64,000 nt of DNA, taken from Actinopolyspora mortivallis DSM 44261 (GTDB lineage: Bacteria; Actinomycetota; Actinomycetes; Mycobacteriales; Pseudonocardiaceae). Below are positions 2,683-8,943 of this stretch, piece by piece (the first letter of the stretch is position 1; each line of letters opens with the position of its first letter). The notes below the pieces were generated by a model, which did no database searches, was not told the DNA's origin, and worked only from the letters and a program-made list of their open reading frames with translations. The stretch spans positions 1,007,655 through 1,071,654 of the forward strand of contig NZ_KB913024.1 of assembly GCF_000384035.1 (NCBI RefSeq), written 5' to 3'. The translations under genes and the position numbers were made by a program.

Positions 2683-3312
2683 TCAGCGCACCCTCGGTTC
2701 CCGGGAGCGGTCCAACTCCAGGCGGATCGCGGTGGGCAGCACCTCGGTCTGCAGGGCGCTGCGCGCCCGGGACAGCACTTTGTGGTCCAGTTCCTCCCAG
2801 ACCCCGCGTACGTCGGTGTCGTCGCGCAGGGACAGCACCATGCGGATCCCGGGACGTCGCTGAGTTCCGGTGGTGCGTACCCGGGCGCCGACGACCCCGG
2901 TGACCTCGTGGGCGTCGGTGCGGATCGCCTCGGCCAGGGCCCTGCCGGACAGGGAGATCCGACCGTCACCGCCCTCCCCGACGCGGAAGTCGGGCCGCGA
3001 CTCGGGGCGCGACGCGCGCACCACCCACCAGAGACCGAGCACGATCAGCACGATCCCGAGTACCACGGCGGCGGCCAGGGTGAGACGGGGCTGGTCCGTC
3101 ATCCAGCGTCGGGCGAGCGGGTCCAGCAGGGGACGTCTCGCTCGGTAGGTGCCCAACGCACCGCTTCCGACCAGCAACACGAACGTGCCGACCAACAGGG
3201 CCAGCGTTCCCACGAGCGCCGTCACCGTCCGTTCGAGGGCGATCGTTCTCCCCAGCAGCCGTGCGGAGTTCCCGCCGCCGTCGCGGGGGGCGTTGGCTCG
3301 TTCCGTTTCCAC
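2683..3312 (-). CDS. AmaP/DUF6286-like membrane protein of the Asp23 block
   Basis: A 209-residue protein with a basic cytoplasmic N-terminus, two hydrophobic helices (about residues 30-53 and 76-98) and a C-terminal soluble domain with a Gls24-like tail containing a paired VGARVRTTG / GIRMVLSL pattern. This resembles the alkaline-shock membrane anchor AmaP, which in Firmicutes tethers Asp23 to the membrane. GTG start at 3312, with GAGGAG upstream. It is the last gene of the minus-strand envelope-stress block, 26 bases after the preceding DUF6286 protein. The anchor function is inferred from topology and neighbours. Confidence 0.75.
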   Translation of the reverse strand: METERANAPRDGGGNSARLLGRTIALERTVTALVGTLALLVGTFVLLVGSGALGTYRARRPLLDPLARRWMTDQPRLTLAAAVVLGIVLIVLGLWWVVRASRPESRPDFRVGEGGDGRISLSGRALAEAIRTDAHEVTGVVGARVRTTGTQRRPGIRMVLSLRDDTDVRGVWEELDHKVLSRARSALQTEVLPTAIRLELDRSREPRVR

Positions 3313-3338
3313 TGTGGGCTCCTCGGGCGTGTGCGGGC

Positions 3339-3872
3339 TCAGTCCCGTTTCGCCGGGCGAACCGTGACCGAGACTTTCGGGGCGGAGACCAGCGGAAGCT
3401 CGTCCACGGCGGTGCGTGCCGTCTCCCGCAGTCTGTGTTCCAGGTCCTCGGACTCCTCACCGTCGCCGAGCGCGGTCACCCGTACCGCTCCGCGTCGAGC
3501 GACCACGGTGGCTTTCGCGACCCCCTGCTGGGCCCGCACCCGGTGGCCGACCACCCTGGCCAGGGAGCGGGGACGCGTGACCACGGTCACGCCCTCGGCG
3601 GGATCGTGCAGCCGGATCTCACCACGTCCCGCACGCAGTGAGAACCACAGCAGTAGCAGGCCGAGCACCGCCGTGACGGCCGCCCCCGTCCGGACGACGG
3701 TGGATCTCCAGGACACCGCGCTCAGTTCGTCCTCCAGGGAGGAGCTGTCCGGCAGCGGGGTGGTGACGTCGGGAAACATCGTCAGCAGGACGATCTCGGT
3801 CAGCAGCAGTGCTCCCGCGGCCAGCAGAACCAGGCCGAGCAGCACCGTGAGCAACCGGATGACAAGACGCAT
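3339..3872 (-). CDS. DUF6286-type two-helix membrane protein
   Basis: 177 residues: a first helix in about the first 32 residues, an acidic external loop with FPDVTTPLPD, a second helix around residues 62-82, then a soluble C-terminal domain (RVRAQQGVAKATVVARRGAVRV) ending in a charged tail. This is the same plan as the next gene downstream, so the two are probably paralogous AmaP/DUF6286 proteins. It begins three bases after the upstream Asp23-like gene, so co-translation is likely. No catalytic motif is seen; a structural or scaffolding role at the membrane is the reasonable reading. Confidence 0.72.
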   Translation of the reverse strand: MRLVIRLLTVLLGLVLLAAGALLLTEIVLLTMFPDVTTPLPDSSSLEDELSAVSWRSTVVRTGAAVTAVLGLLLLWFSLRAGRGEIRLHDPAEGVTVVTRPRSLARVVGHRVRAQQGVAKATVVARRGAVRVTALGDGEESEDLEHRLRETARTAVDELPLVSAPKVSVTVRPAKRD

Positions 3873-3875
3873 CGC

Positions 3876-4268
3876 TCAATCCACTCGGGGTTTCCGGGGG
3901 TGGGGGACCAGGGCGTTGACGCGCACGTCGATCGCGTGCACCCGGCAGTTCGTCATGCGGTCGAGTTCGGTTCGTACCCGCTCGCGCACGGCGCGGATGG
4001 TGGCCTCCACCGGGGCGGGGTAGCGCAGCGCGAGGTCGAGCCGTATCCGCAGCGCCCTGTCGGGGCCGCTCACCCGGGCGCTCGTGCCGTGTCCACCCGC
4101 CCCGAAGCGTCGGGGGGTGTCCACGCAGTCGGGTTCCAGGTTCGCCGTGTGTTCCACGATCTTGCGCAGCACCTCGCGGTCGATCCGCAGCGTCCCGCGC
4201 TCGGACGCCTCGGTGGAGTGCTCCTCGGGACTCGCCGAGGAGTGGCGGGTGTCCAGTGTCTCGGTCAA
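3876..4268 (-). CDS. Asp23/Gls24-family envelope stress protein
   Basis: 130 residues with the family pattern: a strand-forming start (GTLRIDREVLRKIVEHTANL), a central DLALRYPAPVEATIRAVRERVRTEL segment and a terminal VHAIDVRVNAL strand, matching the repeated 'x-V-D-V-x-V' layout of Asp23 proteins. The start is a TTG whose TG is shared with the TGA stop of the upstream DUF2273 gene (TTGA overlap), which implies translational coupling. In Firmicutes Asp23 forms a membrane-proximal network bound to AmaP; here it sits directly before two AmaP-like genes. Its exact biochemical role is unknown. Confidence 0.82.
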   Translation of the reverse strand: MTETLDTRHSSASPEEHSTEASERGTLRIDREVLRKIVEHTANLEPDCVDTPRRFGAGGHGTSARVSGPDRALRIRLDLALRYPAPVEATIRAVRERVRTELDRMTNCRVHAIDVRVNALVPHPRKPRVD

Positions 4269-4447
4269 CGGTCCCTGCCCCGGCCGAACAGCTCACCGAC
4301 GTCCATGCCGTTGTCCACGAAGCGGCCCACCGCGAAACCGAGCACGCCGACGGCCGCGGTGATCAGGAACGCGGTGAAACCCCCCAGGGCCACCGCCACG
4401 CCGAGTATCAGTCCGGCCAGCAAGCCGGTCTGTGTCGCGTTCACCAC
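4265..4447 (-). CDS. DUF2273-type small membrane protein
   Basis: A 60-residue peptide with two glycine-rich hydrophobic helices (TGLLAGLILGVAVALGGF and a following ITAAVGVLGFAVGRFV) and a short charged tail. DUF2273 proteins of this size usually sit between Asp23 and AmaP genes, as here. GTG start at 4447 preceded by AGGAAGG; the coding end overlaps the next gene by four bases. It probably assembles with the Asp23/AmaP proteins in the membrane; this is inferred from conserved linkage. Confidence 0.8.
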   Translation of the reverse strand: MVNATQTGLLAGLILGVAVALGGFTAFLITAAVGVLGFAVGRFVDNGMDVGELFGRGRDR

Positions 4448-4495
4448 GAAAACCTTCCTGTTCGGTGTTGTGTGCTTGCTCGACGCGCCCGGTGC

Positions 4496-4792
4496 TCAGA
4501 GCACCCGGGGACCGCGTCTCCGACGGCTCCGCCATTCCCGCAGCCGCGCCAGCAGCCCGCGCAGACCGTCCCGGCGGACGATCACGACCGTGTCTCCGGC
4601 GCGGGTTTCCCGGGTTGTCGGCGGGGTGGGGGAGAACCCGTCGGCCTCGTCCCGTCCGCGCTGCAACGCGGCGATGCCCGCGGCGAAGGTCTCGGGGTCC
4701 CCGCCCACGTCGGGGTGATGTGTGCGGACGAACTCGCGCAGTCGTGCACGAGCCGCGGAGCGGTCCCGTGTGTACTCATCCGTCCCGGTCAT
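4496..4792 (-). CDS. small HPD-motif (J-domain-like) protein with basic C-terminus
   Basis: 98 residues. The first half contains RARLREFVRTHHPDVGGDPETF, so there is an HPD tripeptide in a helix-loop context as in DnaJ J-domains, with a shortened first helix. The second half is a Pro/Thr linker, a short strand (DTVVIVRRD) and an Arg-rich amphipathic tail (LARLREWRSRRRRG) that could bind the membrane or nucleic acid. ATG at 4792 is preferred over an upstream ATG because GGGAAG lies just before it; it overlaps the upstream gene by 17 bases. The HPD motif is seen directly; recruitment of an Hsp70 is inference. It may be an ordinary small protein peculiar to this actinobacterial locus. Confidence 0.65.
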   Translation of the reverse strand: MTGTDEYTRDRSAARARLREFVRTHHPDVGGDPETFAAGIAALQRGRDEADGFSPTPPTTRETRAGDTVVIVRRDGLRGLLARLREWRSRRRRGPRVL

Positions 4793-5132
4793 CGTGTCTT
4801 CCCGTCGAGGGTTCGGGAGGGGAGGACTCCTCGGGGGCAATCACGTCGCTCACCGTGATGTTCACGGAGTCCTGCCCCGTCAGTTCCTCCAGCCGGGCGC
4901 GCAGCTCGGTGACGATCTCGGGCACTGGTCGGGACAGGCGCAGTACCACTCCCACCTCCGGCGGGCCGTCCGGAGGAAACCGCACTCCGGTGACCCGTCG
5001 CCCGGGCAGGTAAGTGGCGAGGGTGCCGTACTCTCCACCGTCCAACCGCACCACGCAGGGATGGCCGAGCGCCGCCTCGGCCAGGCGCTCGGCCGGACTG
5101 CTCCGGGTCTCCGGGGCGTTCTCACTGTTCAA
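4776..5132 (-). CDS. short Asp23/Gls24-like protein
   Basis: 118 residues beginning LNSENAPETRSS. Asp23-like features: AALGHPCVVRLDGGEYGTLATYLPGRRV, a GVRFPPDG strand, an ARLEELTG helix and the typical SVNITVSDVIAPEE ending. No ATG is available; the TTG at 5132 is chosen because GGGGAGA is six bases upstream and translation farther upstream runs into low-complexity residues. It overlaps the following HPD gene by 17 bases. Members of this shorter subfamily commonly accompany full-length Asp23 genes in actinobacteria and may form mixed assemblies. Confidence 0.72.
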   Translation of the reverse strand: MNSENAPETRSSPAERLAEAALGHPCVVRLDGGEYGTLATYLPGRRVTGVRFPPDGPPEVGVVLRLSRPVPEIVTELRARLEELTGQDSVNITVSDVIAPEESSPPEPSTGRHDDRDG

Positions 5133-5221
5133 CGTCGTCTCCCCGTCTCCGGGACGTGTGCGATGGGGTTCTCCTCCGGGGCGGGGAGGGGACACGACCG
5201 GGTGGCCGTGGCCCCTCCGGG

Positions 5222-5764
5222 TCACTGCACCCGTGACCCGCCTCCGTTGCCGCCGTTCTCCTCCTCGTCCTCCGAGGGCAGGTGAATGTCGTTGACCGAG
5301 ATGTTGACCTCGGTGACTTCCAGGCCGCACATGCGCTCCACGCTGTGGATCACGTTGCGCCGCACCGCCCGGGCGAGGTCCACGATCGCCGCCCCGTACT
5401 CCACGACGATGTCCAGGTCTATCGCCGCCTGACGTTCGCCGACCTCGACCTGCACTCCCGAAATGTTCGAGCTGCCGCTGCCGCCGGGAATGCGTTCCCG
5501 CAGGGCCCCGAACGCGCGCGAGACCCCGCCACCCATCGAGTGGACGCCGGCGATCTCCCGTGCCGCTATTCCCGCGATCTTCTGCACCACGGAGGAGGAG
5601 ATGCTCGTTTTCCCCTGGCTGGTGTCGTCGGCGAGTCGGGCCGGGGTGCCTCCGGAACGGGACTCCGGGATGGTGGCTGCGGTCTCGCTCGCTCCGGACT
5701 GGTCCGCGCCGGACCGTGTGGAACCGGACGTGCTCGTGTGCTGGGTGCCACCGGACTGACTCAT
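5222..5764 (-). CDS. Asp23/Gls24-family envelope stress protein (main copy)
   Basis: 180 residues. A Ser/Thr/Gly-rich disordered N-terminus of about 50 residues precedes a canonical Asp23 domain: GKTSISSSVVQKIAGIAAREIAGVHSMGG, then VEVGERQAAIDLDIVVEYGA, then a RAVRRNVIHSVERM helix and the closing VTEVNISVNDIHLP. The ATG at 5764 is picked for the GGAGGGA box three bases before it. It starts after a 144-base gap downstream of the anti-sigma gene, so it may have its own promoter, possibly driven by the neighbouring ECF sigma factor (inference). It is probably the abundant structural member of the cluster. Confidence 0.85.
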   Translation of the reverse strand: MSQSGGTQHTSTSGSTRSGADQSGASETAATIPESRSGGTPARLADDTSQGKTSISSSVVQKIAGIAAREIAGVHSMGGGVSRAFGALRERIPGGSGSSNISGVQVEVGERQAAIDLDIVVEYGAAIVDLARAVRRNVIHSVERMCGLEVTEVNISVNDIHLPSEDEEENGGNGGGSRVQ

Positions 5765-5879
5765 GGGTTCCCTCCGCGGGTCTTGTTGGCAGCTGTCGGT
5801 TGTTCTCGGCAACGGTGGTGACCGTGTGTCCGGTCAGATGCTAGTTCCGTTCCCGCCCTTCCGGCTCGTTCCGGAATAC

Positions 5880-5893
5880 CCCCCGATCGGGGG
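5880..5893. other. 14-base perfect palindrome in the anti-sigma/asp23 gap
   Basis: CCCCC-GATC-GGGGG reads identically on both strands and lies in the 144 bases between the anti-sigma stop and the asp23 start. It could be a regulator site or a short hairpin that partly ends the sigma/anti-sigma transcript; there is no T-run after it on the minus strand, so a classical terminator is unlikely. GGAAC-type pentamers resembling ECF -35 elements lie nearby on the minus strand, without a convincing -10. Confidence 0.4.
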
Positions 5894-5908
5894 ATGTGAC
5901 TCGGGTGT

Positions 5909-6487
5909 TCATCGTTCGTGCTCGTTCCGTGTGGGTGGGGCCACGTCGGCCAGGCGCACGGTGATCTCCGGGGCACTCACCCCCAGGTGCTCCACGAGCT
6001 CGGCCTCGATCCGCTGCCGGAGGCCGGGCAGCAGACGCCATGCCGCCGCCGGGTAGGTCGCCACCAGGTCCACGCGCAGCACCCGCCCCTCCGGGACGCA
6101 GGAGAGCAGGGTCAGCTCCGGGGTCTCCCGCAGGATCCGCCGGACCAACCCGCGCGTCAGGGACACGGTCGCGGTGGGCCGGATGTAGAGCCTGCCGCGT
6201 TCCTGCTGGAGTTCCACCCACTCGCCGGTGTCGTGGTCCCGGGACTCCCGCAGAACGGCCAGCGTCCGTTCCAGCAGACCCTCCGGGGCCCGTACCGGGG
6301 TCTCGGCGGCGCGCCGCACCGCCCCCCAGCGCTCGGCGATCTCGGCCAGTTCGGCCTGGCAGTGCGGACAGGTGGCCAGGTGTTGCTCCAGGGCGGAGTC
6401 CTCCCCGTCCAGGTGGTAGTCGAGGAGTTCGCCGGTGCTGTGTCCGCACGGAAGGGGCCGGTCGGACACGGGGGTTTCCACGTTCAC
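5909..6487 (-). CDS. zinc-finger anti-sigma factor fused to an Asp23-like domain
   Basis: 192 residues from a GTG whose bases form GTGA with the stop of the sigma gene; GGGAGG lies five bases upstream. Residues around 12-45 form a zf-HC2/ZAS module (CGHSTGELLDYHLDG followed by EQHLATCPHC, the HxxxCxxC ligand pattern), known in anti-sigma factors that bind ECF sigmas. After a helical linker, the C-terminal half reads like an Asp23/Gls24 protein: ATVSLTRGLVRRILRETPEL, VLRVDLVATYPAAAWRLLPGLRQRI and VSAPEITVRLADV. No transmembrane helix is visible. The fusion suggests the anti-sigma factor senses the state of the Asp23 assembly directly; that is inference from domain architecture. Confidence 0.8.
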   Translation of the reverse strand: MNVETPVSDRPLPCGHSTGELLDYHLDGEDSALEQHLATCPHCQAELAEIAERWGAVRRAAETPVRAPEGLLERTLAVLRESRDHDTGEWVELQQERGRLYIRPTATVSLTRGLVRRILRETPELTLLSCVPEGRVLRVDLVATYPAAAWRLLPGLRQRIEAELVEHLGVSAPEITVRLADVAPPTRNEHER

Positions 6488-7077
6488 GGCACCTCCCTCA
6501 ACTCGGTGAGCAGCGCCAGCCGTGCCCGGTGCAGACGGGAGCGCAGGGCGGTGATGTTGACCTCCAGCACCTCGGCCACCTCCTCGTAGGACATGCCCTC
6601 CAGCTCGCGGAGCACCAGCGGCAACCGCTGGGACGGTTCGAGCCGCGCTATGGCGGTGTGCACCCGTCGAGTCTCCTCCTCCCGCAGCGCCGCTCCCTCC
6701 GGGTCCCCCGTGCCTTCGGGGGAGACCGCGGTGAGGGGAGACTCCTCGGTGAGATCCAGCGGAACGGTCGGTTTCCGCTTGCGGACCTGGCTCAACGCCG
6801 CGTTGGTGACCACCCGGTACAACCATGTCGAGGCGGCGGCGTCCCCGCGGAAGGTGGCCAACGCGCGCCAGGCGGAGACCCAGGCCTCCTGCACGGCGTC
6901 CTCGGCTTCGACCGGGTCGTCCACGATGCGCAGGGCGACCCGGTAGAGCCGGTTCGTGTGGGTTCGCACCAGCGAGTCGAACGCCGACGTGTCGCCCTCC
7001 TTGGCGGCCATGAGCAGGGCGCTGTCGTCGGGGACGCTCCCCGTCGCCCGTTCGTCGGCGTCGACTCCCTCGGTCAT
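6484..7077 (-). CDS. ECF-type RNA polymerase sigma factor
   Basis: 197 residues with region 2 (YRVALRIVDDPVEAEDAVQEAWVSAWRAL, core binding and -10 recognition) and region 4 (LEPSQRLPLVLRELEGMSYEEVAEVLEVNITALRSRLHRARLAL, -35 recognition), separated by a Glu/Pro-rich linker; no region 1 or 3, as expected for ECF sigmas. It overlaps the preceding reductase gene by ATGA and the following anti-sigma gene by GTGA, so the three are very probably one translationally coupled unit. Likely kept inactive by the adjacent zinc-finger protein and expected to control the Asp23 block. Confidence 0.92.
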   Translation of the reverse strand: MTEGVDADERATGSVPDDSALLMAAKEGDTSAFDSLVRTHTNRLYRVALRIVDDPVEAEDAVQEAWVSAWRALATFRGDAAASTWLYRVVTNAALSQVRKRKPTVPLDLTEESPLTAVSPEGTGDPEGAALREEETRRVHTAIARLEPSQRLPLVLRELEGMSYEEVAEVLEVNITALRSRLHRARLALLTELREVP

Positions 7078-7844
7078 TCCGCGGTTCTCCCGTAGCGGAG
7101 CAGAAGTACGGAGTCATCGGCGCGCAGTGCCGACAGCAGCCGCATTCCCCGGGGCGCTTCCACACCGTCGCCGAAGGCGATCCTACTGGCTCTGCCCGCG
7201 GTCAGCAGGGGCGAAACCGTCAGGCACAGCTCGTCGACCACATCGGCGGCCACGAGCGAGCCGAACAGGGCGGGGCCGCCCTCACACCCGATCCGGTACA
7301 GGCCGCGTTCGGCCAGCGCGCGAAGGACGTGTGGTGGATCCACCTCCTCGGTTCCGGCGACGATCACGTCCGCTCCGGCCCGGGCCAGCTCGCGACGCCA
7401 CTCCACGGGGGAGGCGGCGCTGGTCACCACGATCGGGGTGGCGACCGTGTCGGTGATCAACGGTGAGTCCACCGGGACCGAACCACGGGCGGTGACCACG
7501 GCTATCGGGGGCACCTCGCCCAGTCCGCGCTCCCGACGCCGTCTGCTGCGGACCTCGGTGCGCCGCACCCCGCGATATCCCTCGGCCAGCGCGGTGCCCG
7601 CTCCGACGAGCACCACGTCGGACAGGTCCCGGATCAGGGCCAGCACCCGCTGGTCCGTGGGGCTGGACAGCCCCCGGGAGCTGCCTTCCACGGCGACCGC
7701 GCCGTCGAGACTGGAGACGAAGTTCACCCTCAGCCACGGGCGGTCCAGTCCCGTGGGGTAGGCGTAGATCCCTTCCAGGGTTTCGACGTCGGTGAACTCG
7801 CTGTCCACCTGTTTTGTCGTGGAGATGGGCCACAGCTGGTGCAT
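7074..7844 (-). CDS. RibD C-terminal-type pyrimidine reductase family protein
   Basis: 256 residues of the RibD_C/dihydrofolate reductase-like fold: RVNFVSSLDGAVAVEGSSRGLSSPTDQRVLALIRDLSDVVLVGAGTAL is the typical substrate/NADPH segment, and IGCEGGPALFGSLVAADVVDELCLTVSPLL the conserved C-terminal part. Stand-alone members are common in actinobacteria and are only presumed to act on a riboflavin-pathway-like pyrimidine with NADPH. It starts 55 bases from the divergent zapE gene and runs into the sigma factor gene with an ATGA overlap, so the promoter in that short gap probably drives the sigma/anti-sigma pair as well. Why a reductase heads this operon is unclear. Confidence 0.85.
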   Translation of the reverse strand: MHQLWPISTTKQVDSEFTDVETLEGIYAYPTGLDRPWLRVNFVSSLDGAVAVEGSSRGLSSPTDQRVLALIRDLSDVVLVGAGTALAEGYRGVRRTEVRSRRRRERGLGEVPPIAVVTARGSVPVDSPLITDTVATPIVVTSAASPVEWRRELARAGADVIVAGTEEVDPPHVLRALAERGLYRIGCEGGPALFGSLVAADVVDELCLTVSPLLTAGRASRIAFGDGVEAPRGMRLLSALRADDSVLLLRYGRTAE

Positions 7845-7899
7845 TGCCCCATCTCAGCACGCCGAGGACCCTCGTCGGAGGAACGGTTACAGTTCCCCC

Positions 7900-8943
7900 A
7901 TGAGCACCCCGCGCCTGGTGGAACGTCACCCCGAGCTCGGTTCCGAGGAACTGGTGGCCGCGCTGGCACCGCCGCCGCGTTTCGACGGGGTTCGCCTCGA
8001 CAACTACGTACCGAACCCCGAGGAGCCGAGCCAGGCCGAGGCGGTGGCGCGGTGCCGTGAGTTCGTCTCCGAGATCGGACGGGGGACGAGCCGGGGCGGT
8101 TCGTGGCTGCGCGCGTTGTTCGGTCGGGTGAGCGGGAAGACCGCGGGAGAGGACGGCTTCCGGCCGGGGCTGTACCTGGACGGCGGGTTCGGTGTCGGCA
8201 AGACCCACCTGCTGGCTTCCATGTGGCACGCCGTGGAGGGGCCGAAAGCCTATGCCACCTTCGTCGAGTTGACCAATCTGGTGGGGGTGCTCGGGTTCGG
8301 GGAGGCGGTACGCCGACTCTCGGAGCACCGTCTGCTGGCCATCGACGAGTTCGAACTCGACGACCCCGGCGACACCATGCTGGTGACCCAGTTGTTGTCC
8401 AAGCTCACCGAGGCCGGGGTGCGGGTGGCCGCGACCTCGAACACGTTGCCGGACAAGCTGGGGGAGGGCAGGTTCGCCGCCGTGGACTTCCTTCGTGAGA
8501 TCCACGCGATGGCCGAACGTTTCACGGTGGTGCGCATCGACGGACCGGACTACCGCCACCGGGACTTCCCCGAGCCGCCGGAGCCGTTGGGCGAGGACGA
8601 ACTGGTCGGGTTGGCCCACCGGACTCCGGGGAGCACGCTCGACGACTTCGGGGAGTTGTGCGCGCACCTGCGGCGTGTCCACCCGTCGAAGTACGGGAAG
8701 ATGGTCGACGAGGTCACCGCCGTGCACCTGAGCGGGGTGCACGCCGTCCCCAACCAGAGTGTGGCTCTGCGGTTGGTCGCGCTGGTCGACCGGCTCTACG
8801 ACCGTGCCGTGCCGGTGCGGATCTCGGGGAGTTCGCTGTCGGCCCTGTTCACGGAGGAGATGCTGGCCGGCGGGTACCGGAAGAAGTACCTGCGTGCGTT
8901 GAGCAGGCTGACCGCCCTGTCCCGGGAGCTGGCCAGGTCGTGA
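7900..8943 (+). CDS. zapE: ZapE/AFG1-type AAA ATPase
   Basis: 347 residues. P-loop GGFGVGKTH at about 95-103 and Walker B LLAIDEFELDD at about 145-155, followed by a sensor-like RVAATSNTLPDKLGEG segment and the family helix FLREIHAMAERF. In Proteobacteria ZapE associates with the divisome and destabilises FtsZ polymers; mitochondrial AFG1 is involved in protein quality control. Actinobacterial homologues share the fold, but their role is not well established. ATG at 7900 gives the usual N-terminus; the nearest GGAGGA is about 17 bases upstream, rather far. Divergent from the reductase gene. Confidence 0.88.
   Translation: MSTPRLVERHPELGSEELVAALAPPPRFDGVRLDNYVPNPEEPSQAEAVARCREFVSEIGRGTSRGGSWLRALFGRVSGKTAGEDGFRPGLYLDGGFGVGKTHLLASMWHAVEGPKAYATFVELTNLVGVLGFGEAVRRLSEHRLLAIDEFELDDPGDTMLVTQLLSKLTEAGVRVAATSNTLPDKLGEGRFAAVDFLREIHAMAERFTVVRIDGPDYRHRDFPEPPEPLGEDELVGLAHRTPGSTLDDFGELCAHLRRVHPSKYGKMVDEVTAVHLSGVHAVPNQSVALRLVALVDRLYDRAVPVRISGSSLSALFTEEMLAGGYRKKYLRALSRLTALSRELARS

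Follow-up and report, generated by a model that had tools for sequence, protein, structure and literature searches.

A predicted soluble anti-sigma factor of Actinopolyspora mortivallis that combines a ZAS module with an Asp23-fold domain

Why should the putative anti-sigma factor of an operon that encodes Asp23 proteins be built, in part, like Asp23 itself? The question is raised by a gene in the window, the 64,000-nucleotide stretch of Actinopolyspora mortivallis DNA that was analysed. A sequence-only reading of this stretch had proposed that the product is a zinc (ZAS) module fused to a half that follows the Asp23 pattern, and that its sigma factor probably controls the Asp23 protein. It took this kinship to suggest sensing by an exchange of subunits, in which free Asp23-like surface or a changed polymer state would alter the release of sigma. 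The limits it gave for the gene (5909–6487) were exact.

The operon and its relatives

The features of the locus are collected in Table 1. The anti-sigma gene, on the minus strand, begins with a GTG at position 6487 that overlaps the stop of the sigma gene and has GGAGG immediately upstream; its stop codon occupies 5909–5911. The gene before the ECF sigma gene (7844–7074, minus strand) is presumably RibD-like. Downstream, the 118-residue protein has no Pfam match, and its counterparts in L081, L098 and L142 (loci, genomes and genera compared are labelled L, G and g) give weak matches to the Asp23 profile; it thus resembles an incomplete third Asp23 domain, and the profile of the anti-sigma domain also fits it. 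A Pfam search with the 98-residue protein gave no match, and we take its HPDVGGD motif to resemble the J-domain signature of DnaJ. Another strong Asp23 gene is found in the same genome at C1:2969636–2969962, distant from the operon.

Table 1. Operon features, with positions in the window
Feature	Position	Strand	Basis
ECF-type sigma factor, 197 aa, regions 2 and 4	6484..7077	-	Pfam Sigma70_r2 6.5e-21, Sigma70_r4_2 1.1e-15
Predicted ZAS-Asp23 anti-sigma factor, soluble, 192 aa	5909..6487	-	Family profiles, hhalign, AlphaFold, hydropathy
ZAS module, residues 12-62, presumed zinc ligands C14, H36, C40, C43	6302..6454	-	Ligand invariance, AlphaFold helices
Predicted Asp23-fold domain, residues 91-183	5939..6217	-	Pfam on relatives, hhalign with controls, AlphaFold
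Presumed promoter region, gap before asp23A	5765..5908	-	Alignment of five Actinopolyspora gaps
Asp23 protein A, 180 aa, presumed structural partner	5222..5764	-	Pfam Asp23 4.4e-30; AlphaFold
118-aa protein, Asp23-like C-terminal half, TTG start inferred	4776..5132	-	Weak Asp23 matches of counterparts
98-aa protein with HPDVGGD motif	4496..4792	-	Kept in 10/10 Actinopolyspora/Saccharopolyspora loci
Small membrane protein, 59 aa, DUF2273-like	4265..4444	-	Pfam DUF2273 8.1e-4, under cut-off
Asp23 protein B, 130 aa	3876..4268	-	Pfam Asp23 3.8e-8
AmaP-like / DUF6286 membrane protein	3339..3872	-	DUF6286 1.7e-17; AmaP model 4.5e-9, under cut-off
AmaP-like / DUF6286 membrane protein	2683..3312	-	AmaP model 58.6 bits (cut-off 55); DUF6286 under cut-off

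The gene order is conserved in all ten named loci of Actinopolyspora and Saccharopolyspora, for which the sigma factor, the anti-sigma factor, Asp23 A, the 118- and 98-residue proteins, Asp23 B and both AmaP-like proteins were tested. A related sigma gene lies directly upstream of the anti-sigma gene, with a gap of at most 45 nt, in 96 of the 97 loci screened (80 distinct pairs); the sole exception, L109, is a plain Asp23. The ZAS module, the overlap with the sigma gene and this constant pairing suggest that the 5909–6487 product acts as an anti-sigma factor. In Geodermatophilus and Blastococcus, a divergent asp23 operon lies opposite the sigma/anti-sigma pair. Short ZAS proteins that lack the Asp23 domain follow a related sigma gene in L096 and L144; their C-terminal stretch looks hydrophobic (L096 shares its contig with L145).

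A stand-alone Asp23 gene is located within about 2 kb in 19 of the 31 named loci with the family and within about 7 kb in two more (Cellulomonas L084 and Arthrobacter L090). None was found on the stretch examined in the other ten, three of which are on contigs shorter than 9 kb. A genome-wide search for six of these ten loci and two further ones returned strong stand-alone Asp23 genes in 8/8, which amount to seven distinct genomes because two give identical rows. Within genus g65 the family occurs in 24 of 39 genomes, and in 24/24 an Asp23 gene is no more than about 1.5 kb away. Within genus g104 a stand-alone Asp23 is near the family in 13 of the 14 loci scanned; the profile is matched in 57 of 61 genomes, mostly by a plain Asp23 alone, and at least 17 rows cover both halves.

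Domain composition of the anti-sigma factor

The N-terminal half contains the Hx3Cx2C zinc motif with a fourth ligand upstream, as in ZAS anti-sigma factors. C14, H36, C40 and C43 are invariant in 30/30 aligned sequences (the window protein and its 29 best-scoring relatives) and in 28/28 of a wider alignment, for which C40 and C43 had already been fixed by the search pattern that collected the sequences. AlphaFold places helices at residues 18–27, 31–39 and 41–62. Single-sequence matches of this half are weak, and the protein is under the curated cut-off of all three profiles: the NCBIfam anti-sigma profile NF052375 (E 3.6e-7, 30.4 bits against a cut-off of 100), NCBIfam RsrA (2.7e-4, 21 bits against 62.5) and Pfam zf-HC2 (0.028, 15 bits against 22.2). 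In the PDB, RsiW is matched at 0.05. The highest 19-residue hydropathy mean of the whole protein is only 1.1, as compared to 2.6–2.8 in the AmaP-like proteins, so the anti-sigma factor has no membrane-spanning stretch, which agrees with the sequence-only view that no transmembrane sensor is needed.

The two motifs quoted for the C-terminal half are present, RVDLVATYPAA at residues 138–148 and APEITVRLADV at 172–182. The window protein alone gives no match to Pfam Asp23 (PF03780) at E ≤ 1, and its BLASTP comparison with Asp23 A of the window is insignificant (E 2.7); the single sequence is therefore not by itself proof of an Asp23 domain. Such single-sequence tests (Pfam, BLASTP against Asp23 A, PDB) were set aside as too weak to decide. 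Among 30 close family members, 16 match the Asp23 profile at E ≤ 1 (best 2e-5) and none is over the Pfam cut-off; six of the ten displayed have a match, each on the C-terminal half of the profile. All ten distant relatives scanned (taken from 21 distant named relatives) match Asp23, seven of them over the cut-off and eight across nearly the whole profile, with a best E of 1.1e-14. Four further relatives are spread widely: L137 is over the cut-off, L135 just under, L140 reaches E 0.048 and L133 has no Asp23 match, and the last two match DUF6286 better. In BLASTP, Asp23 A of the window finds three distant anti-sigma factors (4e-7 to 3e-5).

Comparison of profiles with hhalign links the anti-sigma factors to stand-alone Asp23 proteins, with E 4.1e-6 for the close family (residues 136–190) and 9.1e-15 for the wider family, and the homology to the structural protein proposed in the sequence-only reading is thereby upheld. 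The C-terminal halves of the two families score 42.6 and 88.3 against Asp23. In the controls, 50 column shuffles for each family reach at most 20.2 and 17.3, the reversed profiles 17.7 and 20.5, and the ZAS halves 13.1 and 11.2. Taken separately, Asp23 A, Asp23 B and the 118-residue protein score 33–76 with the anti-sigma domain profile. The better DUF6286 matches of L133 and L140 led us to consider whether the domain descends from the AmaP/DUF6286 branch; this reading was set aside, as the C-terminal halves score 14–21, control level, against the operon's own AmaP/DUF6286 proteins.

In the AlphaFold model of the anti-sigma factor (mean pLDDT 84.8), strands at 91–95 and 98–102 are followed by a helix (104–119), two strands (125–133 and 136–144), a second helix (149–168) and a final strand (174–183). 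The model of Asp23 A (mean pLDDT 69.8, with disordered ends) has a helix at 57–69, strands at 74–77, 104–108 and 112–122, a helix at 127–146 and a strand at 149–161. The order helix, two strands, helix, strand is common to both. A sequence search for a solved Asp23 structure gave none, and neither model had a Foldseek match at E ≤ 0.001. The best 50 solved neighbours listed for Asp23 A are all MamM C-terminal domains, none significant; for the anti-sigma model, Era and others head the list and 14 of the 50 listed are MamM or MamB, again none significant.

Ligand invariance, the Pfam matches of the relatives, the hhalign controls and the AlphaFold models agree. By sequence comparison and structure prediction, the 5909–6487 product comprises a ZAS module and, C-terminal to it, an Asp23-fold domain, which bears out the proposed fusion; the limits of 60–192 first suggested for the Asp23 domain are replaced by approximately 91–183.

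A promoter-like dyad in related genera

A dyad, GTVACV-N14-KTGTCSAA, was derived by eye from the gaps before asp23 in L133–L136 and Geodermatophilaceae. At no more than one mismatch, it occurs at 13 sites in nine of 25 loci (about 349 kb), and 13/13 precede and point at asp23A or the sigma gene; the other 16 loci have no site. L133 and L134 have one copy pointing each way. The site in L084 and those before the sigma gene in L135 and L136 were unseen during derivation. At Cellulomonas fimi L084 (1245–2211), a further sigma-like frame adjoins asp23, which is preceded by the dyad; the ZAS-Asp23 pair is 6 kb away.

The dyad was then counted in 38 loci of two related genera, selected by protein only, of which L105 and L106 overlap the derivation set. 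Sites were taken as on target within 300 nt before the sigma gene or asp23 domain on the same strand. An on-target dyad is present in 23 loci (6/14 in g104 and 17/24 in g65) and absent from 15; 29 of the 30 sites are on target and one is off. With 40 permuted patterns on the same loci, the mean was 0.025 on-target sites and the maximum 1. Counted over whole genomes, the exact pattern lacks specificity: 61 genomes contain 39 sites, and 17 of the backward control; for a set of 39 genomes the figures are 45 and 34. The only two genome-wide matches in G706 and G643 are both at the sigma/asp23 locus. Matches elsewhere in the genome are seen in G183 and G846 (two each) and in G316 (one of two), and neither G020 nor the window genome has any. 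Among the matches listed, 68 pattern loci comprise 12 at the sigma/anti-sigma/Asp23 system, seven near another sigma gene and 49 at neither. We infer that the dyad is the promoter of the cognate sigma factor, and control of asp23 by sigma is well supported in these relatives.

The dyad at no more than one mismatch is absent from the window operon and from the 19 loci L064–L073 and L140–L148 (Actinopolyspora, Saccharopolyspora and ZAS-less relatives), and the gap 5765–5908 has none even at two mismatches. As the window's own family is without the dyad, control of asp23 there would hold only by analogy. The sequence-only suggestion that the sigma factor controls the Asp23 protein thus gains from the dyad in two related genera, and it finds no such site in the window operon or in the ten named loci. 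The asp23A gap is conserved among five Actinopolyspora yet without the dyad, and no promoter was assigned. An element resembling GCATCYGATC is repeated before asp23A in Actinopolyspora and relatives (5765–5908; L070, L073, L146 and L147; by eye). A palindrome, CCCCCGATCGGGGG, is located at 5880–5893, directly past the anti-sigma stop, and is partly conserved in Actinopolyspora.

Sensing of the Asp23–AmaP assembly and its alternatives

The soluble anti-sigma factor would hold the ECF sigma of its own operon via the ZAS module or, in lineages without the zinc ligands, via the remaining helices. The operon would build an Asp23 layer fixed to the membrane by the AmaP-like anchors, and the C-terminal domain would be a diverged Asp23 subunit. 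Through this domain, by docking on Asp23 or AmaP or by competing with them, the anti-sigma factor would sense the state or supply of the assembly. Damage or shortage would alter the release of sigma and so reset how much sigma, anti-sigma and Asp23 is made, in a feedback loop after the manner of PspA and PspF. Since the anti-sigma factor is kin to a product of its own operon and is encoded beside AmaP-like anchors, this is the simplest reading, and we regard its chances as evenly balanced. As to direction, free Asp23 may release sigma, or Asp23 may help to hold it. Two pairs of loci speak against such sensing: L133 and L140, nearer DUF6286 than Asp23, and L096 and L144, with their ZAS proteins devoid of an Asp23 domain. 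So do the lack of the dyad in the window's family, its poor genome-wide specificity and the ten named loci with no stand-alone Asp23 gene on the stretch examined.

A more far-reaching arrangement, which we consider doubtful, would have the anti-sigma factor co-assemble into the Asp23–AmaP layer as a decoy subunit of the scaffold. The polymer state would then set the amount of free anti-sigma factor, with no need of a transmembrane or zinc sensor. Among ten products compared (2683–8943) between the window and four Actinopolyspora (L064–L067), the anti-sigma factor is the least conserved, with 47–51% identity against 78–81% for sigma and 81–91% for Asp23 A. Divergence so much faster than that of Asp23 A does not favour a conserved co-assembly surface, and it counts against the proposed sensing of the assembly as well.

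The Asp23-fold domain could instead sense a ligand, be it a metal, a lipid or a metabolite, and make no contact with structural Asp23, the fold having been recruited like the cupin of ChrR. The MamM and MamB neighbours of the two models, although below significance, would fit such a role. So would YqhY, an Asp23-family protein that, according to the available text of PMC5437119, appears to control acetyl-CoA carboxylase in Bacillus subtilis. A ligand sensor would, however, leave unexplained both the link to the Asp23–AmaP operon and the dyad before both sigma and asp23, and we think it unlikely.

An RsrA-type redox or zinc switch would place the sensor in the other half: cysteine oxidation would open the ZAS module and free sigma, and the Asp23 domain would only dimerise or place the protein. 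The invariant C-H-C-C set resembles that of RsrA, and the RsrA profile is matched under its cut-off. However, the ZAS motif is absent from 13 of the 80 distinct pairs, with sigma and the Asp23 domain retained. Eleven of these, in the window's family, have the module deleted and begin at the helix before the Asp23 domain, as seen in L140–L143, which retain the sigma gene and the Asp23 operon; two keep the module with the ligands replaced. On a sigma tree (quick method), ZAS absence needs two changes, which well supported branches also force and which are most simply read as losses. That the module was lost at least twice with sigma and the Asp23 domain kept speaks against a central role for zinc or redox sensing in the system, and we judge a switch of this kind quite improbable. 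Least probable of all is a purely anchoring role, in which the Asp23 domain tethers the sigma/anti-sigma pair to the membrane via AmaP-like proteins and release occurs by other means such as proteolysis; the two AmaP-like proteins in the operon would speak for it.

With RsrA, ChrR and RsiW the window protein shares the N-terminal helical Hx3Cx2C zinc module and a gene that overlaps the sigma gene. The C-terminal domain differs, being a cupin in ChrR, a membrane-spanning sensor in RsiW and Asp23-like in the window, and the zinc ligands are dispensable in some lineages of the window's family. In the PspA–PspF membrane-stress loop, a membrane-associated polymer protein doubles as a negative regulator. 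The likeness is one of logic only, a membrane polymer protein or its kin serving as negative regulator, with no sequence relation claimed, and the window has an anti-sigma factor in place of an inhibitor of an activator. The Asp23/AmaP/DUF2273 envelope operon of Staphylococcus aureus (Firmicutes), in which asp23 depends on SigB, likewise groups Asp23, AmaP-like and DUF2273-like genes; the window operon differs in being headed by an ECF sigma and an anti-sigma factor that is itself Asp23 kin. According to the available text of PMC6954212, asp23 and amaP share one operon in S. aureus, AmaP keeps Asp23 at the membrane, Asp23 forms filaments and its molecular function is termed unclear.

That Asp23-family proteins serve as soluble anti-sigma factors is already predicted in print. 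The available text of a review (PMC8999054, citing Casas-Pastor 2021) states that ECF286 and ECF292 adjoin soluble Asp23-family proteins predicted as anti-sigma factors, a role that was prediction only at the time, and gives example sigmas from Streptomyces rimosus and Mycolicibacterium cosmeticum. The window has the same adjacency of an ECF sigma and a soluble Asp23-family protein taken as its anti-sigma factor. Its family probably overlaps these groups, to which it is likened by group description rather than by group models. For ECF286 and ECF292 the available text of the review describes no ZAS module, AmaP, promoter or ZAS loss. A literature search, largely without subscription journals, did not find the ZAS-Asp23 fusion, the repeated zinc loss or the dyad, and Asp23 proteins were tied to anti-sigma function in PMC8999054 only.

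Asp23 is a widespread Gram-positive protein family, and an anti-sigma factor built from an Asp23 domain, together with a sigma that apparently controls asp23, would report the state of the Asp23–AmaP assembly. Simple reporter fusions could probe the loop in relatives that carry the dyad before sigma and asp23, and in the ZAS-less relatives the roles of the zinc and Asp23 parts can be told apart. If the proposal is true, the cell may take a direct reading of its envelope scaffold, via an anti-sigma factor that shares the building block of the scaffold and presumably restrains a stress-response switch.
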